A stretch of 64,000 nucleotides of DNA, taken from Pelotomaculum schinkii (GTDB lineage Bacteria; Bacillota; Desulfotomaculia; Desulfotomaculales; Pelotomaculaceae). The position numbers and the translations under genes are program-made. The notes under the pieces were generated by a model. The model was given only the letters and a program-made list of their open reading frames with translations. It searched no databases and had not been told where the DNA came from. Positions 50,155 through 64,000 of this stretch are shown in pieces (position 1 is the first letter of the stretch; each line of letters begins with the position of its first letter). The stretch lies in the NCBI RefSeq assembly GCF_004369205.1, contig NZ_QFGA01000001.1, positions 1,178,001-1,242,000 on the forward strand, in the 5' to 3' direction.

Positions 50155-51426
50155 CTATTTACACCATTGCTCCGGTAAGCCTCTGCCGTTCCAAACCAAG
50201 TCGCCGGTATCCTTCAATACCATTGTGACAGCATTTTGGGGGCAATGACCCTGGCACCAGGCACAACCCATGCAATGTTCGTTATATACAGGACCATTTT
50301 CTTTATCAACATGCACAGCACCGTAAGCGCATAGTTTTTCACAGGTGCCGCAGCGTTTGCACTTATCTAAGTCAAACTTAGGAACAACGGGTGATGGATA
50401 TTGCATCGGGGCTTCTTCTTTCGGCCAATCCCTGATGTAAGAGAAGTCATCAACGCAGAGCCTGGTGAATTCTTCCACCGATTTATAGCCTTTGCGGTCC
50501 ATAAATGCGCTCATGCCTTCAATACAATCCTTCAGCACGCCCACGCCGCGGGAATAAACCGCCGAGCACAGTCCGGCGACGCTGCAGCCGCCCATCATGT
50601 AGCGGACGCAGTCATCATACGTGAAGATACCACCGATCCCGATCACGGGAATTTTGGTAGTAGCGGTAATCTCAAGAACCTTGGCCAGGGAGAACAGCTG
50701 CCAGGCCCGGCCCATCAGGCCGCCGCTGGAATAAGGGCCACCGTAGAACGTGCCTGTTTCATGGTCGATCCAGGTTCCGTAGAAGGCGTTGTTTGCGGAA
50801 ATACCGGCTGCTCCGGCTCTCTCCACAGCCAGTGCTAGTGCTGCCGTATTAACGCACTGCGGGGTCATTTTGAAAACAATCGGGACCTTCACGGCGTCCA
50901 CACAGGCTTTGGTAACGGTATAGGCAGTGTCGGGATCGAGGGCCAGGGGGGCGCCTACATCTTTATGTGCTTCCACCGCTCCGAAGGTAGCATGGGGGCC
51001 GCCGGTGTCCAGTTCGATTACTTTAGCGCCCATGGCCTCCTGGTCTTTACACAGGGAGGTCCAGGATTCTAAATCAAGCCCGATCCCGGATACGCTGGCG
51101 ATAAAAAGGACGTCGTTATCATTGCACACCTTTAAGGTCGCGGGGCCTTCTGTTTCCATGTACTTTTCATAAGGCATATTGTGGAACATCTGGCTACAGA
51201 CCCAGCTGTCCCTTAATTCCGGTCCAAAATGTTTTAGTGAATAAAAATACGGCCTGGGCCAGCGGTGCGGTCCGTCAATTTTATGCACTGTCTTTCCTAC
51301 CAGCCAGCCGATACCCTGGTCAATGACCCGTTTGGCTAAATAGGCGCTGCCGCCAAAGTCACATGAAGTGACCCCCACCGGATTTTTTATTTCCACACCT
51401 AAAAAATTTGTACGTAAATTTGCCAT
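50155..51426 (-). CDS. PreA-like FMN/4Fe-4S oxidoreductase (dihydropyrimidine/dihydroorotate dehydrogenase family)
   Basis: A 423-aa enzyme: an FMN TIM barrel (residues ~1-320) plus a C-terminal two-cluster ferredoxin (CKRCGTCEKLCAYGA, CMGCAWCQGHCPQNA). The start LRTNFLGVEIKNPVGVTSCD and the FMN phosphate site VIGIGGIFTYDDCVRYMMGG are typical of the PreA/DHODB group. The usual NLSCPH segment reads LDTGGPHAT here, so residues that bind or protonate the pyrimidine ring are changed. No PreT partner is encoded; the FAD/NAD protein of the same operon might serve. The ATG at 51426 has AGGAGA nine bases upstream. Last gene of the GRE operon; likely reduces (or oxidises) a ring or enone in the pathway. 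Substrate unknown. Confidence 0.82.
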   Translation of the reverse strand: MANLRTNFLGVEIKNPVGVTSCDFGGSAYLAKRVIDQGIGWLVGKTVHKIDGPHRWPRPYFYSLKHFGPELRDSWVCSQMFHNMPYEKYMETEGPATLKVCNDNDVLFIASVSGIGLDLESWTSLCKDQEAMGAKVIELDTGGPHATFGAVEAHKDVGAPLALDPDTAYTVTKACVDAVKVPIVFKMTPQCVNTAALALAVERAGAAGISANNAFYGTWIDHETGTFYGGPYSSGGLMGRAWQLFSLAKVLEITATTKIPVIGIGGIFTYDDCVRYMMGGCSVAGLCSAVYSRGVGVLKDCIEGMSAFMDRKGYKSVEEFTRLCVDDFSYIRDWPKEEAPMQYPSPVVPKFDLDKCKRCGTCEKLCAYGAVHVDKENGPVYNEHCMGCAWCQGHCPQNAVTMVLKDTGDLVWNGRGLPEQWCK

Positions 51427-51496
51427 GTTATACATTCTCCTATCATTTTTTTATTTAACTAATCAACAATTTGAATTACAATACGGCCTTATGCGG

Positions 51497-51721
51497 TTAA
51501 CCCCCATTGAGCGCTTCCAAAAGGTAAACCTTGTCCCCTTCGTTTAAGACTTTGTCAACAGTGACATGCCGCCCGTTCAGGAACAAACCAAAGACATTCC
51601 TCGGAACACCCAATTTGTCCAGGACCATTCCGATAGTTGCACCCTGGGGTACCTCTACTTTAAAAGTCTGGCCATGCCTTGCGCCTGGTATAAAAAAGGA
51701 TATCTCACCATAAACCTTCAT
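51497..51721 (-). CDS. ThiS/MoaD-like sulfur-carrier protein
   Basis: A 74-aa ubiquitin-fold protein: KVEVPQGATIGMVLDKLGVP, then FLNGRHVTVDKVLNEGDKVY, ending in the functional Gly-Gly (LLEALNGG). Such carriers donate sulfur after C-terminal adenylation; next to a tungsten AOR the likely role is dithiolene formation for the pterin cofactor, as MoaD-like genes accompany aor operons elsewhere. The start may be the ATG at 51721 or a TTG four codons upstream that is better spaced from GGAGGGG. No E1-type enzyme gene is in the window. Confidence 0.78.
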   Translation of the reverse strand: MKVYGEISFFIPGARHGQTFKVEVPQGATIGMVLDKLGVPRNVFGLFLNGRHVTVDKVLNEGDKVYLLEALNGG

Positions 51722-51836
51722 TTCAACTAGCAATATTTTCGCCCCTCCCTTCAATTTAGGCTTGATCAACCCCAGGAGCTTACAGGATATTCTCTAATAC
51801 CTTGGGCAGGCCACGGCCGTTTCCAAAATAATTTTC

Positions 51837-52745
51837 CTACATCATTCGCCCGATTGTTGTTTTAAACCCGTACCGGGCAAATATATCCCTTGCCTTGATC
51901 ACTTCCTCCTTACTTATTGCCCCAATTTCGGTATAAGGTGATGTTATGCCAAGGAATTCATATTTACTTGAGCCTAGTGAATGCAAGGGAACTATATCCA
52001 CCCATTCAGCGTTAATTGTCGTTAAAAACTCCGCTGTTGCTATTAAGTTGTCACGGGAGTTGTTAAAGCCGGGTACCAATGGTACCGATATTCTTGTTTT
52101 ACATTTATCCGCTATTAATTTGGCGTTCTCCAGAATTTTTTTATTTGATACCCCGGTCCATTCCCTGTGTTTTACCGGATCCATGTGCTTTATATCCAAA
52201 AGGACCATATCCGTATACTCAAGGACATCCTCAAGAACTTCCCATTTTGCATAGCCTGTTGTATCAAGGACTGTGGAAATCCCTTTTTCTTTGCTTATTT
52301 TTAGTAACTCTTTGGTAAAAACAGGTTGGTATAAAGGTTCACCTCCGCTTATGGTTAAACCGCCATCCGAACCATAGAAAGGTTTGTCCTTTTCAACCTC
52401 CTCGATGACTTCATCAACTGTCACTATCCTACCCACCTGCTTGAAGGCGGAATAAGGGCATGCTTCCACACATTTCATGCAATATGTGCATTTTTGGCGG
52501 TCAATTTTATGGTCCGTATTCGTGCTGATGGCTCCTGCCGGACAGGCATCAACACAAGCTCCAAAGTCTTTACATCTTTTAGGAATAAAATATAGCTGAG
52601 GTAAGGGTTCCTGAGTTTCGGGGTTGGCGCACCACCTGCAGCTCAAAAAACACCCCTTGATAAAAACTGTTGTTCTGATACCTGGACCGTCGTGTGTTTC
52701 AAACTTTTTGATGTCAGCAATTATACCGGTGTTTTTTGTCATCAT
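51837..52745 (-). CDS. Glycyl radical enzyme activating enzyme (radical SAM)
   Basis: A 302-aa activase that makes the glycyl radical on its partner with S-adenosylmethionine. The radical SAM cluster motif is KGCFLSCRWCANPE (CxxxCxxC), preceded by THDGPGIRTTVFI. An inserted ferredoxin domain follows (CVDACPAGA, CTYCMKCVEACPYSA), as in activases of GREs other than pyruvate formate-lyase. The SAM-binding GLTISGGEPLYQP is clear. It lies five genes after the GRE in the same operon, with no second GRE in the window, so the GRE at 58585-61053 is its target. Confidence 0.93.
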   Translation of the reverse strand: MMTKNTGIIADIKKFETHDGPGIRTTVFIKGCFLSCRWCANPETQEPLPQLYFIPKRCKDFGACVDACPAGAISTNTDHKIDRQKCTYCMKCVEACPYSAFKQVGRIVTVDEVIEEVEKDKPFYGSDGGLTISGGEPLYQPVFTKELLKISKEKGISTVLDTTGYAKWEVLEDVLEYTDMVLLDIKHMDPVKHREWTGVSNKKILENAKLIADKCKTRISVPLVPGFNNSRDNLIATAEFLTTINAEWVDIVPLHSLGSSKYEFLGITSPYTEIGAISKEEVIKARDIFARYGFKTTIGRMM

Positions 52746-52790
52746 GTTATACCCCTTATTCTCATTAACCCTTACCGCTTATTCAGCTAT

Positions 52791-53420
52791 TTACTTGGCC
52801 GCCAGACTTACTTGCTGGCTACTTGCCGGAACAGGCTTTTTTGTAATCCAGGGCTTACCCATCCAATACACTTCGCGTCCAAAAATTTCGTTAACAACAG
52901 AACCGACTACCTGCCATACACAAGCGAGGATCACCAGGGGCAGGTCCCAACCGGCAATAGCCCAGAAAAGCTTTGTACCGGTCAAGAAATATAGGGAGGC
53001 AAAGACAAAGAATACATCTGTTACAAGCATAAATAAGGAACCGACGGTATTTTTCAACATAAAACAAGGAGTCCAACCTAACATTAGCAGGGCCATAACC
53101 CCAAACACAATACCGTCCACCACGGCGGTCGAACCTTGTATAATTTTTAGTGCTATGAGGAGGTGTTCCAGACAGCCGTACCACATAAAGGCGCTAAAGG
53201 TTAAAAAGATGTTGCCGGTCAATACAATGCCATTTCTCATGTTCATGATCCCGGCGACGGTTTGTACAATCGCACCACAAAAACCCAGAGCAACCAAAAT
53301 CATACCGGCACTATGGGGAGCCATACCAGTAGCGACAGGCCACAAACATGCCAGGTAAAACGCTAACACTGCTTCGCCAGAGGGAGTAGGGTTTGCAAAT
53401 GGTGGTCTATTGTCACTCAT
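52791..53420 (-). CDS. GPR1/FUN34/SatP-like acetate (monocarboxylate) transporter
   Basis: A 209-aa membrane protein with six hydrophobic segments. The N-terminal NPTPSGEAVLAFYLACLWP corresponds to the NPxPxGL signature of the AceTr/SatP family, and WYGCLEHLLIALKI and TGTKLFWAIAGWDLPLVILA fit segments 3 and 6. The family moves acetate or succinate, often with protons, as hexamers. Within this operon it may import a short acid substrate or export the acid product. GAGGAGG precedes the ATG. Confidence 0.75.
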   Translation of the reverse strand: MSDNRPPFANPTPSGEAVLAFYLACLWPVATGMAPHSAGMILVALGFCGAIVQTVAGIMNMRNGIVLTGNIFLTFSAFMWYGCLEHLLIALKIIQGSTAVVDGIVFGVMALLMLGWTPCFMLKNTVGSLFMLVTDVFFVFASLYFLTGTKLFWAIAGWDLPLVILACVWQVVGSVVNEIFGREVYWMGKPWITKKPVPASSQQVSLAAK

Positions 53421-53439
53421 TTTTTTAGCCTCCTCGTTT

Positions 53440-54702
53440 TTATTTTAGGTTCATATACCGGCCAATTACGCGATAGTGCCAGGGGTAGCAGGAATTAATC
53501 AACGTTACCTTTTGCCACTGAGCCCTAAGCTCAGCTAAATCATCCTTTCTCCACATAGACCCGAATAAAATTCCCATGTCTTTGGCGAACCTGCCGACAG
53601 CGTGGGCGCCGGCTAACTTGCCTTTATTAAGGATTAACCTGCAGTAATCATTGCCGAATTCTCTCTCTATCACTTCAACATCTGTTTGATCCGCTATACC
53701 GGTTAACGTTTTTCCGATAGATACAGAATCCGTGTTAAAATAATGCGCTCTCGTAATACTCCAGGCTCCCGGGTAAACACTGGGTATCCCGGCACAGTTT
53801 TTAGCGATAACTTTACCTTGCTCCAGGGCGTTATGCCTTAGTTGGATAAGGACTCTTTCCCCCGTAATGGCGTCCGTCGTTTCAGCGCAATCACCACAGG
53901 CGTAAATATCCCGGACGGTTGTCATCATCCTCTCATTGACCTTGATACCCCGTGTCAGCCCGATTTCCGTCCCTGCCTGCCTGGCCAGCCCTGTTGATGG
54001 CGCCACACCTATGGCCAGCACGACAGTATCACACTGAATTTCCCTTTTGTCTGTCGTGACGCTATCCACCTTACTGTCACCATTGATGCTGAGAAGTCTT
54101 TCGTTGGTTAACACGTGAATACCGTTTTCAGTCAGGCCTTTTTCCAGCTTTTTGGCTGCATATTCATCAAATGTCCGCGGCATGATCCAGCCGGCCAATT
54201 CAAGCAAATATACTTCAAAACCCTTTTCTTTCAAGGCCTCGCTTGCTTCAATACCAATAAGACCGGAGCCAACGACAACGGCAGCTTTACCGTTACGGGC
54301 GTAAAGGGCGTCAGCGTCAGCAAGGACCTTGCAGCCATACACTCCTTCTTTTTCAATGCCTTTGATAGGCGGCATTACCAGATCGCCGCCGGCGGCAATT
54401 ACTAAGTTGTCGTACGTCAGTTCACTGCCGCGGTCTAAATATACCTTTTTTTGTTCAGAGTCAATCTCCTTAGCCTCTTGTACGATAAGATCAATATTGT
54501 TGCTTTTATAGTCATCGAAATTATTTAAAAACACATTCTGCCTTGGTATCTTACCGCCGACATAATAAGGAAGTGCGCCGGGTTCGTATTCAGGACAGTT
54601 TTCCCGGGTGACGATTGTTATTTTAGCATTCCGGTCATAATTTCTAATGCCGAAAGCCGCAGCATTGCCGCCAATCCCGTTTCCTATAATAACTGTATGC
54701 AA
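53440..54702 (-). CDS. FAD/NAD(P)-dependent oxidoreductase (AorC-like)
   Basis: A 420-aa two-dinucleotide-domain flavoprotein of the rubredoxin reductase/NADH oxidase type. FAD site: HTVIIGNGIGGNAAAFGIRN; NAD site: KAAVVVGSGLIGIEASEALK; second FAD motif: DIYACGDCAETTD. The Cys near position 37 (ENCPEYEPGALPYY) sits where CoA-disulfide reductases have their redox Cys. The TTG at 54702 is the start: GGAGG is eight bases upstream and the FAD motif then begins at residue 3. It follows the AOR gene, the position of aorC in AorABC-type operons, so it probably passes electrons from the ferredoxin subunit to NAD+. It could alternatively serve the PreA-like protein. Confidence 0.85.
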   Translation of the reverse strand: MHTVIIGNGIGGNAAAFGIRNYDRNAKITIVTRENCPEYEPGALPYYVGGKIPRQNVFLNNFDDYKSNNIDLIVQEAKEIDSEQKKVYLDRGSELTYDNLVIAAGGDLVMPPIKGIEKEGVYGCKVLADADALYARNGKAAVVVGSGLIGIEASEALKEKGFEVYLLELAGWIMPRTFDEYAAKKLEKGLTENGIHVLTNERLLSINGDSKVDSVTTDKREIQCDTVVLAIGVAPSTGLARQAGTEIGLTRGIKVNERMMTTVRDIYACGDCAETTDAITGERVLIQLRHNALEQGKVIAKNCAGIPSVYPGAWSITRAHYFNTDSVSIGKTLTGIADQTDVEVIEREFGNDYCRLILNKGKLAGAHAVGRFAKDMGILFGSMWRKDDLAELRAQWQKVTLINSCYPWHYRVIGRYMNLK

Positions 54703-54837
54703 TATTACACCTCCTTTGGCTGAAATGTAGCCTTGCATACCGGCAGCCTGTTCCTTTCGCCCTGCAAAGACCTTTAATTGCACAGTGACCAATCAAAAAG
54801 CTCAGGCTGCCGACAGTAAGGCTCAATAATCAATTAA

Positions 54838-56832
54838 TTATTGATTATTGATTCTGCTTAGGTATTCCCTGTACAGCTTGCGGCCGCTTTCCATGTCGGG
54901 GATGATTTCCTCAATACCAAGTTCGGTCGCTTTTTCCGGGGTAATAAAACCTTCTTCATCCCAGCCATGATATTTGTAGTATTCTGATTGCGCCCAGGCC
55001 CACTCTGCCCGGTCAATTTTCATGCCTTTATACGGGCCGTCTACGACTCCCTCGTCAAAGAACCTGTCGATATGAGTATCGTCCTGGCGGGCGCTTCCGG
55101 CGCGGTTCCAGTTGGCTCTTTCAATGTTGATTACACGCTCCGCAGCCAGGAAGATCTCCTCATCAGTCATATCAAACCCGGTCGCTTCGCGGAACAGCGG
55201 GGTATAAGCGCGCCAGTCACCGGCGCCGCCCCAGGAACCGATGGCCTGACAGCAGCAGCCGACCAGGTCGGCGACGCACTTGTTCTTTTCAGACCAGTAA
55301 ACCAGCTTGGGTTTAGTGGTCAGAGTATAAAGCTCTTTTGGGAAGTCCTTCCAGAACTCCTCATTTAATTCAGGTCCCAAAGCGTCCAAAACCAACTCTT
55401 TACGGCTCATGGCGCAGCCCTGGAACTCCAGGCAGGAGTAGTTTTTCAGGTGGTCCGAACCCCTGGTGGACATCGCATAGCCCAGGCTAAAGCCCATGGC
55501 AATCCTCGGGTCGACGCTGATGTGCTCCAGTCCGCGGCAGTGAGGTACTATTTTATCAGTTCCACGTCCGATAATTTCAGCTATGCGGATATTGCCTTCA
55601 GCCAGCAGGTTTCCAAAACCCTCCCTGTACGCTATCATTTCGAGCACTTTTTTCGAGGTCTCCATGTCGGCCCATTTAAATTCAATGCCGCCGGTATCTT
55701 CTTTAGTAAGCAGGCCTTTCTCAAAAGCCTCCATTGACCAGGAAAGCGCAGCTCCCGCTGAGATGCTGTCCAAGCCCAGGTCATTTACCATGCCGCACAT
55801 TATATTGACTTCATCAACATCAGTGGAATCAATTCTAGGCCCCAGGTTGCAGGCGCTCTCCATTTCCGGCCCGCCACAGTGGAAACCGGCATATTTTCCT
55901 TCCTTGATGTAGGTGTAGCGGCCGCAGCTAACCGGGCACGACCAGCAGCCTTTTCTCCTGAAGAGGTATTTACTGGCCCACTGGATACCGCCGTATGTTT
56001 CCTCTATGCCGGGCATGTAACCTGTGCTGTGGTTTTTGTGCGCGTTGATACCGATAATATTGCCGGCGTCAAAAAGGTCAAAGGTACCTTCTTCCCGCCG
56101 CCTGATGGCCGACGGGGAATTATGGACGACTTCCCGCAGCTTCCAGGCTTCCTTGGCAAATTTATCAGGATTCCCATAAGTCAGCGGCTTGGTGCCCCTG
56201 ATTGCGATGGCCTTCAAGTTCTTTGAACCCATTACACAACCCATACCGGTACGTCCGCCGGAAGAACTGAAGGTATTGACCACACAGGCGAACCTGACCA
56301 GGTTTTCCCCAGCCGGGCCGATACAGGCAACTTTAACGTCGGGGTCTCCCAACTCCTCAATGAGATGTTTCGTCGCCGCTTTGACTTTTTGTCCCCAGAG
56401 GTGGCTGGCGTCCCTGATTTCAACTTTATCGTCATCGATGAAGATATAGACCGGCTTTGCAGCTTTACCCTTAACCACGATCTGGTCATAGCCGGCATAT
56501 TTCAGGTAGGTGGAGAACTGTCCCCCCATGTTGGTATCACCATGACCATGGACATTAGTTCCTCTATATGAACAGGTCATCGGTGAAAGGGCGCTGACGG
56601 TTGTCCTGCCGGCCAGCGGAGCAAAAGTACCGGTCAGCGGACCCGCCGCGAAGCATAACGGGTTTGCCGGGTCAAGGGGATCCATACCTTCCCAGGTTTC
56701 GTGGTAAACGATATCGGAGTTTAAGCCCCTGCCGCCGATCCACCTGCGTAAATATTCCGGCGTCAATTTTTCTACTTTATATGTCCCTTCAGTAAGGTCA
56801 ACTCTCAGTCTATTACCTGCCCAACCATGCAT
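54838..56832 (-). CDS. aor: Tungsten-dependent aldehyde ferredoxin oxidoreductase
   Basis: A 664-aa AOR family enzyme that oxidises aldehydes to acids (or reduces acids at low potential) at a tungsten bis-pterin site. The pterin-binding GGRGLNSDIVYHETWEG and AAGPLTGTFAPLAGRTTVSA are at the N-terminus; the 4Fe-4S ligands are CWSCPVSCGRY (CxxCxxxC) plus a later Cys in VADLVGCCCQAIG. Length is a little above archaeal AOR, as in bacterial AorB. AGGAGG precedes the ATG. The neighbouring ferredoxin and FAD proteins make it an AorABC-like complex. Substrate is inferred to be the aldehyde made by the GRE pathway. Confidence 0.93.
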   Translation of the reverse strand: MHGWAGNRLRVDLTEGTYKVEKLTPEYLRRWIGGRGLNSDIVYHETWEGMDPLDPANPLCFAAGPLTGTFAPLAGRTTVSALSPMTCSYRGTNVHGHGDTNMGGQFSTYLKYAGYDQIVVKGKAAKPVYIFIDDDKVEIRDASHLWGQKVKAATKHLIEELGDPDVKVACIGPAGENLVRFACVVNTFSSSGGRTGMGCVMGSKNLKAIAIRGTKPLTYGNPDKFAKEAWKLREVVHNSPSAIRRREEGTFDLFDAGNIIGINAHKNHSTGYMPGIEETYGGIQWASKYLFRRKGCWSCPVSCGRYTYIKEGKYAGFHCGGPEMESACNLGPRIDSTDVDEVNIMCGMVNDLGLDSISAGAALSWSMEAFEKGLLTKEDTGGIEFKWADMETSKKVLEMIAYREGFGNLLAEGNIRIAEIIGRGTDKIVPHCRGLEHISVDPRIAMGFSLGYAMSTRGSDHLKNYSCLEFQGCAMSRKELVLDALGPELNEEFWKDFPKELYTLTTKPKLVYWSEKNKCVADLVGCCCQAIGSWGGAGDWRAYTPLFREATGFDMTDEEIFLAAERVINIERANWNRAGSARQDDTHIDRFFDEGVVDGPYKGMKIDRAEWAWAQSEYYKYHGWDEEGFITPEKATELGIEEIIPDMESGRKLYREYLSRINNQ

Positions 56833-56894
56833 ACCTGTTTCCTCCTTATATTTGTTTATAATACAACCAGTACTCTTTGTTTGAGTGATTATTT

Positions 56895-57434
56895 TTAAGA
56901 AAAACTAAAATTGAACTTGGGTTCGTCGTCGTTCTTGGCTAATTGAGGCTTGTATTCTTCTTTCATTTCCCATGCATGTTTCTTACCCGAAGTTTTGGCG
57001 ACCATATATTTGGGGACATACTGGAGCGCGCCCTGCATTGTGCAGGCCTTAACACACCAGGGCATTTCCTCTCCGGCGCACTTGTCGCAGCTCATCGTCT
57101 TACCATTGTCAGGATTTATAACGGGCGCGCCTGTGGGACAAGCGTAAGAACATGCCCTGCAGCCGATACACGCATCCTCATTGGTAACCACAGCGCCGTT
57201 CTCAGTCCTGTAGCGGGCGCCCATAGGACAAACCTTGATACAGGGCGCTTCTTCGCAAGCCTGGCAGGTTACAGGAATAAAAGTATTGACTTCACGGAAC
57301 TCATTGATACGGACCCTTGAATAATACGGATGAGACTTACTAAAATTCTTCATTGAACACGCCATTTCGCACGAATGGCAGCCTGTGCACATTTCAGGGT
57401 CGATTACGATCACCTTTTCCTTCAAATCCACCAT
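56895..57434 (-). CDS. Four-cluster ferredoxin subunit (AorA-like)
   Basis: A 179-aa protein with 16 Cys in four 4Fe-4S motifs: CTGCHSCEMACSM, CQACEEAPCIKVCPMG, CIGCRACSYACPTG and CDKCAGEEMPWCVKACTM. The pattern matches electron-transfer subunits of the DMSO-reductase type and AorA of bacterial AOR complexes. It has no signal peptide, so acts in the cytoplasm. It stands 60 bp before the AOR gene and should conduct electrons from AOR to the FAD subunit or to ferredoxin. Confidence 0.9.
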   Translation of the reverse strand: MVDLKEKVIVIDPEMCTGCHSCEMACSMKNFSKSHPYYSRVRINEFREVNTFIPVTCQACEEAPCIKVCPMGARYRTENGAVVTNEDACIGCRACSYACPTGAPVINPDNGKTMSCDKCAGEEMPWCVKACTMQGALQYVPKYMVAKTSGKKHAWEMKEEYKPQLAKNDDEPKFNFSFS

Positions 57435-57489
57435 TTAGTTACACCCCTTTTATATATTGATATTTTTACGGACAACCGAATCCATTCGT

Positions 57490-58542
57490 TTACAGACCGA
57501 TTAACCTGGCCGGTACTTCCTTGGCCATGACGTTGATATCCGCTTCGCTTATCCCCTGGGCTAAAAGCGTCTTGATAAACGACTTCCAACCCGGTACAGG
57601 GTTATTTCCCGGTTGCCCGGCGTCGGTGATCAGGACGAGATGGTCCGGCCCTTTTTCTTTAATCAACTCTTTAATCAGGTTGAAGGAATAGTCAAAGGCA
57701 ATAATCCAGTCCTGCATGCCGGGCCAGGGTACACACGAGCACTCGGCAAACTCAAGATAGCCGCCCTTGTCGATCATTTCCCTGGCTTCCTGCGGGGTCA
57801 CAATGGTCAGTTCCTGGGTGACGTGGTCCATCAGCACATCCACGTCCATCCCTTTGGCGTTGATGTAGTCCAGGATAGCGACCTTTTCCTCGTTGGAAAC
57901 ATGACAGCCCGAGAGTGCGCAGCGGTCACCCTTGGAGTTCTTATTGTAATCGGCGAGCAGTTCCAGAATTTTGATCATCTCAGGGGTCAGGGTGGCGCCG
58001 TCCGCTACTTGAATCCCGCCTTCCAAACCCATCGCGTTAACCTGGTGCCTGGCATCTAATGAGGGCAGCCAGACTTCCTTGCACCTTCCATACCCTAGAG
58101 CTACTTCTACCGCTTTAGCGTTCATGCCGCCGACGGTGTTATTTAAGGTAATGCCGCCGTATACCTCAACTGGAGTGAATACCTCGCCTTTGGCCGCTCT
58201 TTCCTTTTGCATCCGCCCCAAAAAATCCTGAATAATGGTTGCGCAGTTGTTGGTCATCGTGTTGTGGTCTTTAAATACCAGCGCTTTCATGCCGGCTTCA
58301 CTCGCTTCGATGCACGTTTCAACCATCGTCGGCCGGCCAGCCAGCCATGCCCCCAGCGGCGCACCGTGGATATGCACATCGATACAGCCTTTCAAGATTT
58401 CATCCACTTTTGCAGGATCAACAGGTGTTCCCGGGTTGAAATACTTGTACGGCCACACCGGACTGGTCCTTTTAGCCAGTTCTTCCTCGGTGATGGCCCT
58501 GCCGTATTTCATTTTTGTCCAATCGTCCAGCGCTTTGTTCAC
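57490..58542 (-). CDS. DUF6282 amidohydrolase-like protein
   Basis: A 350-aa predicted metal-dependent TIM-barrel protein. A metal-binding HxH lies in CIDVHIHGAPLGAW; further candidate ligands are the His in VFKDHNTMTNN, the CHVS segment after CALSG, DHVTQEL and an Asp in LITDAGQPGNN. This fits the DUF6282 group, near the amidohydrolase/PHP superfamily, whose reaction is not known. I prefer the GTG at 58542 (AAGGGAG eight bases upstream) to the ATG at 58560. It directly follows the GRE gene (about 40 bp), so it likely acts on the GRE substrate or product, for example ring opening or deacylation; this is inference. Confidence 0.78.
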   Translation of the reverse strand: MNKALDDWTKMKYGRAITEEELAKRTSPVWPYKYFNPGTPVDPAKVDEILKGCIDVHIHGAPLGAWLAGRPTMVETCIEASEAGMKALVFKDHNTMTNNCATIIQDFLGRMQKERAAKGEVFTPVEVYGGITLNNTVGGMNAKAVEVALGYGRCKEVWLPSLDARHQVNAMGLEGGIQVADGATLTPEMIKILELLADYNKNSKGDRCALSGCHVSNEEKVAILDYINAKGMDVDVLMDHVTQELTIVTPQEAREMIDKGGYLEFAECSCVPWPGMQDWIIAFDYSFNLIKELIKEKGPDHLVLITDAGQPGNNPVPGWKSFIKTLLAQGISEADINVMAKEVPARLIGL

Positions 58543-58584
58543 AACAACGGCTCCCTTCATTTAGTTTGTATGGTTACATAACAT

Positions 58585-61053
58585 TTACAGTCCTTCGTAT
58601 TCGGTCCGCTCAATAACCTGCCTCTGCACATCAGGCCCCAAATCAATGAACCTGGCTGTGAAACCGGCTACCCTGACCATTAAATCCGAGTAGTTTTCCG
58701 GGTGTTTCTGAGCGTCAATCAGCATATTCCGGTCTACAATGTTGTATTGGACTTGATAACCACCCAAGTTGAAGTAAGTGTCGTTAAGCTTAATAAATTT
58801 TTGCGCCCCGATATCCCCTTCTATGGCCGACGGGTTGAATTTCATATTGAAGAGCGTCGACTGCAGCTTATCCGCGTGGACTTTGGTGGCGGACTTGATC
58901 AGGCTGGTCGGCCCGTTCACATCTGTGCCGGGAAAAGCGGAGATGGCTCCGTCAGCCAGGAAATCTCCCGCCAGCCTCCCGTCGGGGCTGGCGCCGCAAG
59001 CCTTGCCGTGCAGCACCTGGGTGGTCACCGATAACGTGCTCGGCCTCCAGGGTTTGCCGACCCAGTTGATAACTTTTTGAGACACTTCCGACCAGATATC
59101 GTACATTTCAACCACGATTTGATCGACATAGTCATCATCGTTGCCGTATTTCGGAGCTTCCTGCAGTTTCTTTCTGAGGAGTTCATAACCCTCAAAGTTA
59201 TTCTTAATGGCTTCCTTCATCTCGTCCATTGTCATAGACTTCTCATCAAACACATATTTTTTAATCGCAGCCAGGCTGTTGCCGACATTAACCAAACCGG
59301 TTGATATGACATAAGCGGGGTCGTTATAACGGCAGCCGCCCTCATAGGCATGCCGGCCCTTTTCAATGCAGTCGTCCAAAAGAGCGGTCATAAAGGGATG
59401 CACCAGCCCGATATCGTTGTGCACAAGCATAATGGCGTTCATGTATTCCTCTTCCCGCCTGACGATCAACTCGCAAACCCTCTTGTACTCCCCGACTATT
59501 TTTTCATAGGAAGCCTTGTTGAGATCAATTTTCAAGTCAACCAGCTTGTCCCCGGTAACCGGGTTGACGCCGCCGTTTAAGACCAGCTCAAATATTTTCG
59601 GGTTGTTGGTGTTGGCTACCGCATACATCGGCATCCGCTTGCCGCAAATCTGCATATCCACACAGCCGCAGGGCGCCCAGTCCCTGGCGTCTTCCAAATT
59701 GGCGCCGGTAACGCTCATAAATCTTTCAGTCGCCAGCTTGTCGTTGAACAAGGCCGGATAGCCTGAACCTGCCTTGATGCAGTCGACCACTTTCATTTTG
59801 AAACTTTCGCTTAAGTCGTCCCTCCACCTTACCGATATGGTCGGCTGCCAGGTCCTTACATTTACTCCCGCCTGCAGCACCAACTTGGAAAGCTTATTGT
59901 CGGCGGGAACGCCATACCTGTCCACACCACCCAAAGTAACGTTCTGGTAGATACTGCCGCCCAGGTAGGATTCTGTGAAGGTTGCGTGAGCCCGCGTAAT
60001 TTCAGTGCATTTTACCCGCATCAGTTCCAATAGTTCCAGAGCTTTTCCCTCAGTAATGCTGCCTTTTGCAAAATCATTCCTAAAGGGCCTGTACATGTAC
60101 TGGTCAAAACGCCCCGGTGAAATACCCCTGCCGTTTATTTCGATGAAAAGACAGACATGGGCAAACCAGAAGGACTGCATCGCCTCGTGGAAGGTGTCCG
60201 CCGGCTTTCCGGGGACTTTTCTGCAGATACGGGCAATTTCCAAGAGTTCCTCTTTGCGTTTTTGCTCCCGGCAAATCCCGGCTAATCTTTCCGCTTCCCC
60301 GGCGTGGTTCTCAGCGAAGTTGATCACGCCTTCCAGGGCCATAATGGTCCCCTTGTAGAAATTGTACCGGTCAAAATCTTCCTTGCTGTTTAAGCTTCCT
60401 ATTGCCTTTATTTTTCCTTTGAGGCGCTCGATAATCGACTCCAGGCCTTCATCTATAACCTTTTGATAATCTACGATGAGCCTGCCTTCCGGCACGTCAA
60501 ACATAAAGCGCAAAAAGACTAATTGCTTTTGCCAGTTCTCCACCTGATCGAAATCATCCATCGTTTCTTTCAGGTATCTCTCTGATAGCGACCGCCAGTC
60601 TTTGCCTTCCCAGAACCTGGCGACTTCCAGGATCTTTTCTTTATCTTCCGGATAAATCCGGTAAATCCCGAGCCTGTCTCCCTTGCGTTCCTGGAGCGTA
60701 CCCTTGATGTACCTTTCTTCTTCCCTTTTGACGTTTTTAAAGCCCTCCAGCATCCAGGCTTCATATTCAGGGTATACCTGGACCCCCCTGAAATAGCGCG
60801 ACATGCTTCCCACCAGCAACTCATCATCCCAGATCTTGGGTGTCAGATTGGAAAGCACGTGCTTCAACGCTCCCCCTGCCCTTAGATACATGGGCTCGGT
60901 CCAGTGTCCTTTGATATAATCCGTGTACAGTACGGCTCTTTCTGAATCGATAAAAGGCTCATTGTCCAGAAGTTCCCGGTAACGCCTGTTGACTCTTTCA
61001 GTGGAAGGGCTCCCTTTGATTTCTCTATCCACAATTTGCTTAGCCACAGCCAT
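58585..61053 (-). CDS. Glycyl radical enzyme (pyruvate formate-lyase family), unassigned substrate
   Basis: An 822-aa GRE. The glycyl radical loop near the C-terminus is VRVAGFTARF with Gly797. The thiyl region is DWAPCGCVDMQICGKRM: Cys464 fits the catalytic Cys, but the residue two places on is Asp466 where most GRE eliminases/decarboxylases have Glu, and a second Cys (462) precedes it. The N-terminal PFL-like domain and the region HEAMQSFWFAHVCLFIEING are normal. It is not pyruvate formate-lyase (no Cys-Cys pair) and matches none of the subtypes I know (glycerol, choline, hydroxyproline, isethionate, hydroxyphenylacetate). First gene of the operon, behind a sigma-54 promoter, with AAAGGAGG upstream. 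Its activase is encoded five genes on. Confidence 0.9.
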   Translation of the reverse strand: MAVAKQIVDREIKGSPSTERVNRRYRELLDNEPFIDSERAVLYTDYIKGHWTEPMYLRAGGALKHVLSNLTPKIWDDELLVGSMSRYFRGVQVYPEYEAWMLEGFKNVKREEERYIKGTLQERKGDRLGIYRIYPEDKEKILEVARFWEGKDWRSLSERYLKETMDDFDQVENWQKQLVFLRFMFDVPEGRLIVDYQKVIDEGLESIIERLKGKIKAIGSLNSKEDFDRYNFYKGTIMALEGVINFAENHAGEAERLAGICREQKRKEELLEIARICRKVPGKPADTFHEAMQSFWFAHVCLFIEINGRGISPGRFDQYMYRPFRNDFAKGSITEGKALELLELMRVKCTEITRAHATFTESYLGGSIYQNVTLGGVDRYGVPADNKLSKLVLQAGVNVRTWQPTISVRWRDDLSESFKMKVVDCIKAGSGYPALFNDKLATERFMSVTGANLEDARDWAPCGCVDMQICGKRMPMYAVANTNNPKIFELVLNGGVNPVTGDKLVDLKIDLNKASYEKIVGEYKRVCELIVRREEEYMNAIMLVHNDIGLVHPFMTALLDDCIEKGRHAYEGGCRYNDPAYVISTGLVNVGNSLAAIKKYVFDEKSMTMDEMKEAIKNNFEGYELLRKKLQEAPKYGNDDDYVDQIVVEMYDIWSEVSQKVINWVGKPWRPSTLSVTTQVLHGKACGASPDGRLAGDFLADGAISAFPGTDVNGPTSLIKSATKVHADKLQSTLFNMKFNPSAIEGDIGAQKFIKLNDTYFNLGGYQVQYNIVDRNMLIDAQKHPENYSDLMVRVAGFTARFIDLGPDVQRQVIERTEYEGL

Positions 61054-61089
61054 TAATTTGCCTACCTCCTTTCTTATATCTTAATTAGA

Positions 61090-61104
61090 GCAAGATGCAT
61101 ACCA
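61090..61104 (-). promoter_or_regulatory. Sigma-54 (-24/-12) promoter of the GRE operon
   Basis: Minus-strand sequence TGGTATGCATCTTGC, with GG and GC separated by exactly 10 bases and TTGC at -12. It lies 37 bp before the GRE start codon. An NtrC-family regulator gene is directly upstream, which supports the call. Confidence 0.78.
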
Positions 61105-61153
61105 GATTGATATCCCCGGCAAATTAAGCTTTTAGCGGGTTTTTTATCGGGGG

Positions 61154-61188
61154 AAAAAATAAGACTTACCGTAAAAGCGGTAAGTCTT
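61154..61188 (-). terminator. Terminator of the two-component system genes
   Basis: Perfect 11-bp stem AAGACTTACCG / CGGTAAGTCTT with a 6-base loop, followed on the minus strand by ATTTTTTCCCC. It isolates the regulator genes from the GRE operon. Confidence 0.85.
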
Positions 61189-61190
61189 AA

Positions 61191-61205
61191 CGTAATCTCG
61201 TTACG
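61191..61205. promoter_or_regulatory. Inverted repeat, candidate enhancer site for the response regulator
   Basis: CGTAA-TCTCG-TTACG lies about 90-100 bp upstream of the GRE sigma-54 promoter, the usual place for NtrC-type binding. It is short, and only one copy is seen. Confidence 0.4.
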
Positions 61206-61229
61206 AAATAACAATCTAGCGGGAATTTT

Positions 61230-62684
61230 TCAATGCTTTTCTTTTTTCAGATATCTTAGAGCTCGTGGTGTGGTTTTAAGAATTTCAGCAGCCGTTGGGT
61301 AATGCCCTTTGGCCTCCTTGAGAGACCTCTCAATGATTAATTGGGTGGCTGTTATCTCCATCTGCTTGAAATTTTCCAAAAACCAGGGTAGATCAAACCC
61401 GGAATCAAAATTCATAGCTTCAATAAAATTTGTAAGTTTTCCCTCCATTTCGGCGAACAAGTTTTCAACAGGTTTGACTTGTGGTTCAATCTGAGGCTGC
61501 CGCTCTGTTCCGCTTATAAGTCCTTTTTTTGAAATATTAAGCGGTAAATGCTCAGGAAGGATGACAGTACTGTCGCACACTGCCGCGATTTTCGCGATCA
61601 TATTTGCCAATTCCCTGATATTACCCGGCCAATTGTAGCTTTTGAGAATATTCAACGCCTCCGTACTTAAGGAAGGCACTCTACCGGGAGGGAAATGGCG
61701 CACCATAAAATGTTCGGTCAAGAATAAAATGTCTTCCTTCCTGTCCCTAAGTGGAGGCAAGGTTAAAGTAACCACTTCGAGCCGATAGAACAGGTCCTCC
61801 CTGAAACGTTTCAATCTCATTAATTCTTCCAGATTGGCATTCGTCGCGGCAAGAATACGGACATCAACATGAATTGGTTTTTGGCCGCCAAGCCTTAATA
61901 ATTCGCCCGTTTCCAAAACACGCAAAAGTTTTACCTGAATCGAATTACTGGCGTCGCCAATCTCATCCAGAAAGAGCGTTCCGCGATGGGCCAGCTCAAA
62001 AATTCCTTTTTTCTGATTTGAAGCCCCTGTAAAAGCTCCTTTTTCATAGCCAAAAAGTTCACTTTCCAGTAAATTTTCCGGTAAAGCTCCGCAGTTTACA
62101 GCCAGAAACGGCTTGTCCGCGCGAGAGCTTATGGCGTGAATAAAATGAGCAAGGACATCCTTCCCGGTTCCTGTTTCGCCGCGAATTAGAATAGTAACGT
62201 CCTTTTTGGCCAGTTTTTCCGCAACCAGGAGCAACCGCCGCATTTCTTCACTTGGTCCGGTTACCAGACCGACGGAAGCAAGTACCTGGTTTCCTTGTTC
62301 AAATGTCTCATTTTTCACAGTCGACCGGTTTAGAGCCTGGCTGATAACTGATTCCAATTCGGAAAGATCGCTGAAAGGCTTTTCGATATAATCAAATGCT
62401 CCAAGCTGGATAGCCTCAACAGCTGACTTTACAGTAGAGTAACCTGTCATTATGATCGATTCACAATCCGGCTGGAGTGATTTTAATTCCCGCAGCAAGG
62501 TAATCCCGTCAGTATCAGGAAGTTTGAGGTCAATAATAGCCAGGTGGTAAGATTCCTTAAAAGCTTCTCTGGCCTGCGCCCCGTTTACGGCTACCGTTAC
62601 CTTGTAGTGGTACGGTTCTAAGAGAAACGTAAAAAATTCTCCTATTTCAATTTCATCATCAACAACCAGAATGCGGAAAGTCAT
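61230..62684 (-). CDS. NtrC-family sigma-54 response regulator
   Basis: A 484-aa regulator with receiver (residues 1-120; phosphoacceptor Asp52 in LAIIDLKLPDTDG, Lys in YIEKPF), AAA+ domain (Walker A GETGTGKD ~170, intact GAFTGA loop in GYEKGAFTGASNQ, LFLDEIGDASNS) and a C-terminal Fis-type HTH (YPTAAEILKTTPRALRYLKK). GGAGAG precedes the ATG. It follows the histidine kinase gene by 66 bp and is separated from the GRE operon by a terminator; it very likely activates that operon at its sigma-54 promoter. Confidence 0.92.
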   Translation of the reverse strand: MTFRILVVDDEIEIGEFFTFLLEPYHYKVTVAVNGAQAREAFKESYHLAIIDLKLPDTDGITLLRELKSLQPDCESIIMTGYSTVKSAVEAIQLGAFDYIEKPFSDLSELESVISQALNRSTVKNETFEQGNQVLASVGLVTGPSEEMRRLLLVAEKLAKKDVTILIRGETGTGKDVLAHFIHAISSRADKPFLAVNCGALPENLLESELFGYEKGAFTGASNQKKGIFELAHRGTLFLDEIGDASNSIQVKLLRVLETGELLRLGGQKPIHVDVRILAATNANLEELMRLKRFREDLFYRLEVVTLTLPPLRDRKEDILFLTEHFMVRHFPPGRVPSLSTEALNILKSYNWPGNIRELANMIAKIAAVCDSTVILPEHLPLNISKKGLISGTERQPQIEPQVKPVENLFAEMEGKLTNFIEAMNFDSGFDLPWFLENFKQMEITATQLIIERSLKEAKGHYPTAAEILKTTPRALRYLKKEKH

Positions 62685-62750: not shown

Positions 62751-64000
62751 TTAAGGCTCTTCTTCAACAGGTATCATCAAGGAAAACTTGCTTCCATGAC
62801 CAATCTCAGTTTCTACGGCTATCTTCCCGCCATGGGCTTCAGCGATATTTTGACTGATTGAAAGGCCTAGTCCCGTCCCCATCACTTTGGTGGTATAAAA
62901 TGGGCTGAATATCTTTTTTAAATGTTCTGATTCAATACCACAACCCGTATCACGTACTTCGATATAAACAAACCGATCTTCAATTCCGGTGGTCAGATAA
63001 ATATTACGGATACCTCTATCTTGAAGCGAGTCCCGGGCATTGATCAGCAGGTTAACCAAAACCTGTTCCAAATGCTGCCTGCTCCCTGTAACTTCAGGAA
63101 GTCCCCGCGCAAAATTTTTTATAATCCTGATATTATTCTTTTCAATTTCATAGGCAACCAGCGCCAGGGCGCCTTCCACAATATCATTCATATTGATTGG
63201 CTCAAACGAATATTTTTCCTGACGTACAAAGGCGCGGAGTTTAAGGATGATATTCTTGCAGCGTTCACCGCATTTTTTTATATTATCCAGAAGTTTTCCC
63301 TTCTCAGGCGGGTGGATTATAGCATCCCGCTCCAAAAGAAGGGTGTTGCCAATAATGGCAGTGAGAGGACTGTTTAATTCATGGGCAATGCCTGAAGCAA
63401 TTTCCCCGATAGCAGCGAGCTTTGCCGATTGAATTAACTGCGCCTCCATGTTTACCCGCTCCGTAACCTCCCTTATTGAAACAACAACTTCGTTTACAAT
63501 GCTATCTTTATTATATATCGGGTATGATGACAGATCCCATATAACACCGTTAGGAAGGTGAATACGCTTGTTGACCGGCTGTCCTTTTTCAAAAGCCTCT
63601 TTCAACAGGCTTTGCACATGATCATATTGTTCAGGGTCAAAATACTCATACCATAACTGTCCTACCTGGGGAATTATATTTCTTGCCCTTCCCAATTCCA
63701 AAACAGCCTTATTAAAGCGTACAATCTGACATCTCCGGTTGATCACGATCAGCATGTCCGTTACAGCCTTAAAGGTTTCTTCCCAGGCCCGTTTACTCAT
63801 ACTTTCTTCAGAGTAAAGCCTCACGTTTTCAATACATAAGGACAACTGGTCAGCAACCTGGCGCAAGAAGACGATCTCCTCTTCTTTATACGAAAAAGGT
63901 TCATGGCTTCCCAAAATTAAAGCCCCAATGGATTCGCCTTTAACAAACAAAGGCATGATAATCTGAGATTTAATATTGAGGTGAGCCAGCACAATATCTT
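62751..64000 (-). CDS. Sensor histidine kinase, GAF-PAS-HisKA-HATPase (5' part outside window)
   Basis: At least 416 aa; the frame is open to the window edge, so the true start lies beyond 64000. It begins within a GAF domain (SQIIMPLFVKGESIGALILG, CIENVRLYSEES), then a PAS domain (AVTDMLIVINRRCQIVRFNK), the dimerisation domain with the phospho-His in EIASGIAHELNSPLTAIIGN, and the ATPase with N box (NLLINARDSL), G1 (DTGCGI) and G2 (GTGLGLSIS). No membrane segment is seen in this part, so it may sense a cytoplasmic compound. It pairs with the NtrC-family regulator downstream. Confidence 0.9.
   Translation of the reverse strand, partial: DIVLAHLNIKSQIIMPLFVKGESIGALILGSHEPFSYKEEEIVFLRQVADQLSLCIENVRLYSEESMSKRAWEETFKAVTDMLIVINRRCQIVRFNKAVLELGRARNIIPQVGQLWYEYFDPEQYDHVQSLLKEAFEKGQPVNKRIHLPNGVIWDLSSYPIYNKDSIVNEVVVSIREVTERVNMEAQLIQSAKLAAIGEIASGIAHELNSPLTAIIGNTLLLERDAIIHPPEKGKLLDNIKKCGERCKNIILKLRAFVRQEKYSFEPINMNDIVEGALALVAYEIEKNNIRIIKNFARGLPEVTGSRQHLEQVLVNLLINARDSLQDRGIRNIYLTTGIEDRFVYIEVRDTGCGIESEHLKKIFSPFYTTKVMGTGLGLSISQNIAEAHGGKIAVETEIGHGSKFSLMIPVEEEP

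Follow-up and report, generated by a model that had tools for sequence, protein, structure and literature searches.

The window analysed here, a 64,000-nucleotide stretch of Pelotomaculum schinkii DNA, encodes a member of a distinct, uncharacterized subfamily of oxygen-sensitive glycyl radical enzymes (GREs), the CVD clade, in which an invariant aspartate takes the place of the usual catalytic glutamate. The translated reading frame contains ...DWAPCGCVDMQICGK... and shows the hallmarks of the GRE superfamily, namely a barrel similar to that of pyruvate formate-lyase (PFL), a C-terminal Gly_radical domain, a thiyl cysteine and a linked activase of the TIGR02494 type. The best solved relative is 1r8w (HMMER, E 3e-144). 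Foldseek matches of the predicted model are GREs of many kinds; the pLDDT of the model lies under 50 at residues 458-480, around the active site, and the model was not used for pocket geometry. Every GRE subfamily assigned so far has accounted for a metabolite, such as trimethylamine, skatole, cresol or H2S formed from isethionate. The CVD clade is sharply bounded, apparently widely transferred, unusual at the proton-transfer position and fixed in its partner genes, and it lends itself to direct tests and is a good target in the search for new routes of anaerobic degradation, be it in digesters, in sediments or in animal guts.

Table 1 Features of the GRE cluster in the window, and members of a second Asp-containing GRE lineage. 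L, G and C numbers are our handles for loci, genomes and contigs.
Feature	Position	Strand	Basis
Sensor histidine kinase, runs off the window	62751..63998	-	ORF; homologue at the same place in L038/L058
Sigma-54 response regulator	61230..62684	-	Pfam; adjoins GRE in L037, L038/L058 too
GRE, CVD clade, 822 aa	58585..61053	-	PF02901 569 bits; PF01228 98 bits
R191	60481..60483	-	Column mapping to IAD Arg226 / HPAD Arg223
R309, private to clade	60127..60129	-	HPAD Ser344 / glycerol dehydratase His281 position
Thiyl loop C462-G-C464-V465-D466-M467-Q468-I469-C470	59644..59670	-	Translation; alignment to solved GREs
C462 codon	59668-59670	-	Translation
C464 codon	59662-59664	-	Translation; on thiyl Cys of solved GREs
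D466, at CxE glutamate site (IAD Glu502, HPAD Glu505)	59656..59658	-	Column mapping
C470 codon	59644-59646	-	Translation
G797, expected glycyl radical site, in RVAGFTARF	58663..58665	-	Gly_radical domain; invariant in clade
DUF6282 amidohydrolase-fold protein, core partner	57490..58560	-	PF19799 132.6 bits
4Fe-4S electron-transfer subunit of AOR module	56895..57434	-	Fer4 families; homologues in L037, L042, L044, L053, L057
Aldehyde ferredoxin oxidoreductase (AOR), 664 aa	54838..56832	-	AFOR_N + AFOR_C; 1aor E 3e-113
FAD/NAD(P)H oxidoreductase, PadH-like	53440..54792	-	Pyr_redox_2; NF045765 239 bits, below cut-off 475
Membrane protein weakly like acetate uptake transporters	52791..53420	-	NF007941/NF038013 E ~1e-5, below cut-offs
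GRE-activating radical SAM enzyme, 302 aa	51837..52745	-	TIGR02494 327 bits, cut-off 174
PreA-like flavoprotein, C-terminal 4Fe-4S domain, core partner	50155..51435	-	PF01180, Fer4; 7m31 E 2e-20; co-occurrence
L095, second Asp GRE lineage	G457:C29:17885-20296
L105, second Asp GRE lineage	G457:C29:14588-16912
L080, second Asp GRE lineage	G406:C51

A sequence-only reading of this DNA had picked out the motif CGCVDMQIC and placed an aspartate at the glutamate position of the Cys-X-Glu (CxE) motif. Both points hold. In HMMER alignments, C464 falls on the thiyl cysteine and D466 on the glutamate of GCVE in 1r8w, 9f3w, 8id1, 5i2a and 9rco, so that no alternative Cys-X-Glu occupies the thiyl site. 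The glutamate expected two residues after the thiyl cysteine of a GRE eliminase is aspartate in 23/23 clade members. The third cysteine of the motif, numbered 469 in that reading, is C470, residue 469 being isoleucine, and the flanking cysteines that it had taken as a distinguishing mark turned out not to be one. C462 is shared with N-methyl-cis-4-hydroxy-L-proline dehydratase (8id1, CGCVE), which has the same WxPCGCV loop including the extra cysteine; that enzyme differs in its Glu at +2, and its family (L027, L031-L035, L078) lies elsewhere in the tree. C470 is replaced by Gly in L046 and by Ser in L053. A PFL-like cysteine pair was ruled out on these grounds.

One genome per species, about 85,000 species in all, was scanned with the peptides PEYE[AT]WM and FWEGKDW, both far from the motif. 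This gave 21 relatives at 68-98% identity, every one with CGCVDM. As C462, C464 and D466 are invariant in 23/23 clade sequences and the scan peptides lie outside the motif, its conservation is not due to chance. The hosts are scattered among sediment, digester and gut bacteria: in the Firmicutes, Pelotomaculum, Thermoanaerobacterales and other Clostridia, including a Clostridium MAG (G402) with three GRE copies; Deltaproteobacteria including Phox-21 and a Syntrophaceae MAG; Coatesbacteria; a Bacteroidetes MAG; and the Eggerthellaceae-type gut MAGs Rubneribacter (two copies), Aveggerthella and Aphodovivens. This patchy spread across several phyla suggests horizontal transfer. The clade is sharply bounded, since no GRE between ~68% and ~40% identity was found in 398 genomes of the window's phylum, in 345 genomes of the phylum of the Syntrophaceae MAG or in 138 genomes of the family of Aveggerthella.

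We found that the residue at thiyl Cys+2 varies considerably in the 59 GREs sampled outside the clade, a set biased towards relatives of the CVD enzyme: E 41, Q 6, D 3, S 3, Y 3, V 2 and T 1, so that Glu is missing in 18/59. The three Asp cases (L095, L105 and L080, with motifs GCLD, GCID and GCVD) form a separate lineage in the tree. The aspartate is thus neither unique to this enzyme, as the sequence-only reading had implied, nor restricted to the CVD clade; the second lineage matches no equivalog model at cut-off, and, in the sequences and literature searched, Asp was not found to be common in any characterized GRE class. No PreA or DUF6282 match was seen beside these genes save for a short ferredoxin-domain match in L112. 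L095 and L105 form a tandem GRE pair; a single activase gene separates the two, and transporter genes flank them. The other non-Glu enzymes read GCVV (L019, L033), GC[IV]Q (L092, L093, L102, L104), GCVY (L097, L098, L100), GCVS (L094, L099) and GCVT (L091), and none of the non-Glu lineages scanned reaches an equivalog cut-off. According to PMC7077986, the CxE glutamate is a conserved feature of GRE eliminases. Indoleacetate decarboxylase (IAD) requires its Glu502, E502Q being inactive, and phenylacetate decarboxylase has Gln at this position (PMC9248008). Loss of CxE alone is therefore not new, and the proposal that leaving CxE implies new chemistry is weakened, whereas its other half, an altered substrate or geometry, is favored by the invariant Asp together with private residues and private gene neighbors. 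The literature searched held no paper on a CxD GRE and no description of a clade related to decarboxylases in which Asp is invariant.

All genes of the cluster lie on the minus strand, in the order histidine kinase, sigma-54 regulator, GRE, DUF6282, 4Fe-4S protein, AOR, FAD/NAD oxidoreductase, acetate-transporter-like protein, activase and PreA-like protein. By tblastn, the activase and the PreA-like gene are linked to the GRE in every relative with the flank assembled, except L039, and DUF6282 is linked to it in most relatives. The Fe4S-AOR-FAD trio occurs in environmental clusters (L037, L042, L044, L053, L057, L120) and was not found in those gut-type clusters for which sufficient sequence was available (L046, L049, L051, L055). 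We take the trio to resemble the Aromatoleum-type AOR complex (AorABC) in make-up, with the difference that here it is linked to a GRE cluster. The acetate-transporter-like membrane protein was found in L037, L057 and L120 too.

The association between the GRE and the PreA-like gene is clear. At a threshold of E <= 1e-60, the PreA-like gene is present in 2/398 and 5/345 genomes of two phyla (743 genomes), which are exactly the seven GRE carriers; a formal probability for this would be misleading because of shared ancestry and physical linkage. In one genome (G143) the GRE and the PreA-like gene were assembled on separate contigs, each close to a contig end. Copy numbers agree as well, with GRE:PreA:DUF6282 at 3:3:3 in G402 and GRE:PreA at 2:2 in G403 and G400. 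Neither PreA nor DUF6282 was found in G399, the genome of L039, or in G406, which is weak evidence as both are MAGs. Genes of a molybdenum hydroxylase of the xanthine dehydrogenase family lie directly downstream of the GRE in L039 (12350-15048). The three loci of G402 (L046, L051, L055) are full paralogous GRE-activase-PreA-DUF6282 clusters, perhaps serving different substrates, and a PreT-like gene stands beside the L051 cluster. In G540, one PreA-like gene (L121, 9661-10953) has no GRE near it and is preceded by a histidine kinase and a sigma-54 regulator of its own.

The PreA-like protein has the dihydroorotate/dihydropyrimidine dehydrogenase fold. It falls short of the PreA model NF006183 (162 bits against 335), and the stretch at its active site reads TGGPHA, differing from dihydropyrimidine dehydrogenase, which has SSPHG or SAPHG in solved chains (Cys in the wild type). 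Its substrate is thus probably different from that of PreA. The DUF6282 protein conserves HxH, H219, H245 and D312. Its model (pLDDT 83) gives 2-pyrone-4,6-dicarboxylate hydrolases and PTE-like lactonases as the best Foldseek matches, and several amidohydrolases tie in VIA-align (Z 18-19.6); a sequence search against solved structures gave no match, and no paper on DUF6282 was found in the literature searched. A distant DUF6282 on a Thermus plasmid adjoins ring-cleavage genes. By analogy, the two partners would fit a reductase plus a ring-opening hydrolase, as in reductive breakdown of pyrimidines or urate (PMC12507026). Like reductive pyrimidine degradation (PreTA plus an amidohydrolase), the cluster combines a PreA-like reductase with an amidohydrolase-fold enzyme and, in L051, a PreT-like gene; the differences are that the hydrolase here is DUF6282 and that a GRE is added. 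The urate pathway itself was rejected as a counterpart, its logic being similar and its enzymes different. Dipicolinate was considered as a substrate and no evidence for it was found. Two published systems were likewise set aside: the limonene GRE is an X-succinate synthase, and the paper on the benzene cluster proposes no GRE.

In a FastTree phylogeny of 791 columns, the CVD clade (support 1.0) is sister to the arylacetate decarboxylase group (node support 0.991), which holds L060 (IAD), L061 (similar to hydroxyphenylacetate decarboxylase, HPAD) and the IAD-like L059 and L077. L060 passes the IAD model (1576 bits, cut-off 1100) and L061 is just under the HPAD model (1118 against 1150). The window GRE passes none of the curated GRE family cut-offs: IAD (NF033718) is its best model, yet it scores only 688 bits against 1100, with 563.9 against 678.2 for TIGR01774 (PFL2/glycerol dehydratase subfamily), and its identity to the nearest decarboxylase-like sequences is only 35-40%. 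The reaction type of a GRE is not fixed by phylogenetic nearness.

Pocket residues were mapped by anchoring on residues named for IAD (PMC9248008) and HPAD (PMC4979209), each placed by its offset from the relative's thiyl Cys and by finding the same residue within a few positions; placement is therefore approximate for sites far from the Cys. Arg226, essential in IAD (PMC9248008), corresponds to R191 and to HPAD Arg223, their roles being taken from the same two papers; among the 59 other GREs, only the six nearest sequences and one more have this arginine. The other IAD residues map as Glu502 to D466, His514 to A478, Trp392 to T360, Phe401 to Y369 and Leu616 to I583, and HPAD Ser344 and Gly345 to R309 and G310; for HPAD Glu637 the alignment gave no reliable position. 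Of the IAD set Arg226, Glu502 and His514, only the arginine is thus kept. The likeness to IAD extends to the GRE fold and an acid at thiyl Cys+2; the difference extends to the new R309 and other gene neighbors. R309, H356, E361, W402, T482, D578 and Q679, among others, never vary within the clade and hardly occur outside it. These clade-private residues suggest a substrate more polar or more acidic than phenyl- or indole-acetate, and together with the invariant D466 and the private neighborhood they make it very probable that substrate or geometry differs from that of characterized GREs.

The reading that we prefer, at a probability of about 0.4, is a GRE subfamily related to the decarboxylases that would cleave its substrate, a polar acid that probably contains a ring, at the carboxylate, within a reductive route to ring opening. 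In its favor are the sister position to IAD and HPAD, IAD as the best curated model, the retention of R191, the acid kept at a position essential in IAD, the linkage of the activase and PreA-like genes, the co-occurrence of PreA, the matching copy numbers, the PreT-like gene and the likeness of DUF6282 to ring-opening lactonases. Against it stand the low identity to decarboxylases, the exchange of His514 and Trp392 for A478 and T360, the lack of PreA and DUF6282 in G399, and gut clusters that have no nearby AOR.

From sequence, conservation, phylogeny and gene linkage we infer the reaction type, the residue roles, the step order and a ring substrate as follows. The radical SAM activase would install the radical on G797, from which it would pass to C464. 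The C464 thiyl radical would activate the substrate, which R191 and R309 would bind through its carboxylate or through other acidic groups, while D466, one methylene shorter than Glu, might take or return a proton and C464-H would give the hydrogen atom back; the reaction would be a decarboxylation or another cleavage next to the carboxylate. The product might then pass to the PreA-like flavoprotein for reduction of a ring or C=C bond, after which the DUF6282 metal hydrolase would open the ring. In syntrophs and sediment organisms, the AOR complex may oxidize an aldehyde product, with electrons passing through its Fe-S and FAD subunits to NAD. More speculatively, the CVD clade might catalyze the first step of an anaerobic pathway not yet described: a glycyl radical, with thiyl chemistry tuned by Asp, would act on a di- or hydroxy-acid that bears a ring, and reduction by a flavin enzyme and opening of the ring by hydrolysis would follow. 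If true, this would be a new GRE reaction common to syntrophs, other sediment anaerobes and gut bacteria.

The main rival, which we regard as unlikely, is an eliminase (a dehydratase or a C-N or C-O lyase) in which Asp would act as the general base or as the acid for the leaving group and an aldehyde would go to AOR. Glycerol and propanediol dehydratases (1r8w, 5i2a) are the best solved matches in sequence and structure and share the fold and the thiyl Cys position, and Asp could in principle replace Glu as the base; however, they read CVE where CVD stands here, His281/Ser282 and Asp447 of glycerol dehydratase are replaced by Arg/Gly and Ala, and the tree groups the clade with the decarboxylases and not with the dehydratases. 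The AOR beside the GRE fits an aldehyde product in the environmental clusters but is not nearby in the gut clusters, and PreA and DUF6282 partners would be unexpected for a simple diol.

An ordinary arylacetate decarboxylase yielding p-cresol, skatole or toluene, with Asp a neutral replacement for Glu, is considerably harder to accept. The sister phylogeny would agree with it, as would R191 and G310, conserved as in HPAD and IAD. Yet the window GRE is far under the IAD cut-off and reaches only 493 bits against 1150 for HPAD (NF033715); the equivalents of IAD His514 and Trp392 are missing, R309, E361 and D578 are private, and a degradation cluster would be unexpected for a terminal product. Compared with HPAD itself, the window GRE has an aromatic residue (Y369) at Phe405, Asp in the column of Glu505 and R309 at Ser344, and no HPAD small subunit was recognized among its neighbors. 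Phenylacetate decarboxylase (PhdB), compared through its published description alone (PMC9248008), shares the absence of the CxE Glu and differs in having Gln, not Asp. Other C-C bond formation or cleavage, similar to X-succinate synthase or PFL with C462 or C464 as the covalent or radical site, is just as improbable: C462 is invariant and a dicarboxylate could be bound by two arginines in the region of the pocket, but C462-Gly-C464 is unlike the adjacent Cys pair of PFL, CGC is present in a dehydratase (8id1), the PFL model TIGR01255 gives 138 bits against 994, and no PFL or Bss accessory subunits were recognized nearby.

Between the window (50155-62684) and the locus of Pelotomaculum UBA10960 (L037), identity is 97-98% for the regulator, the GRE and DUF6282 and 83-88% for the Fe4S, AOR, activase and PreA proteins. 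This mosaic of identities suggests that local recombination has shaped the cluster. The host genome encodes five further GREs, two of which (L002 and L003) are adjacent to each other (G000:C2:536483-541704).
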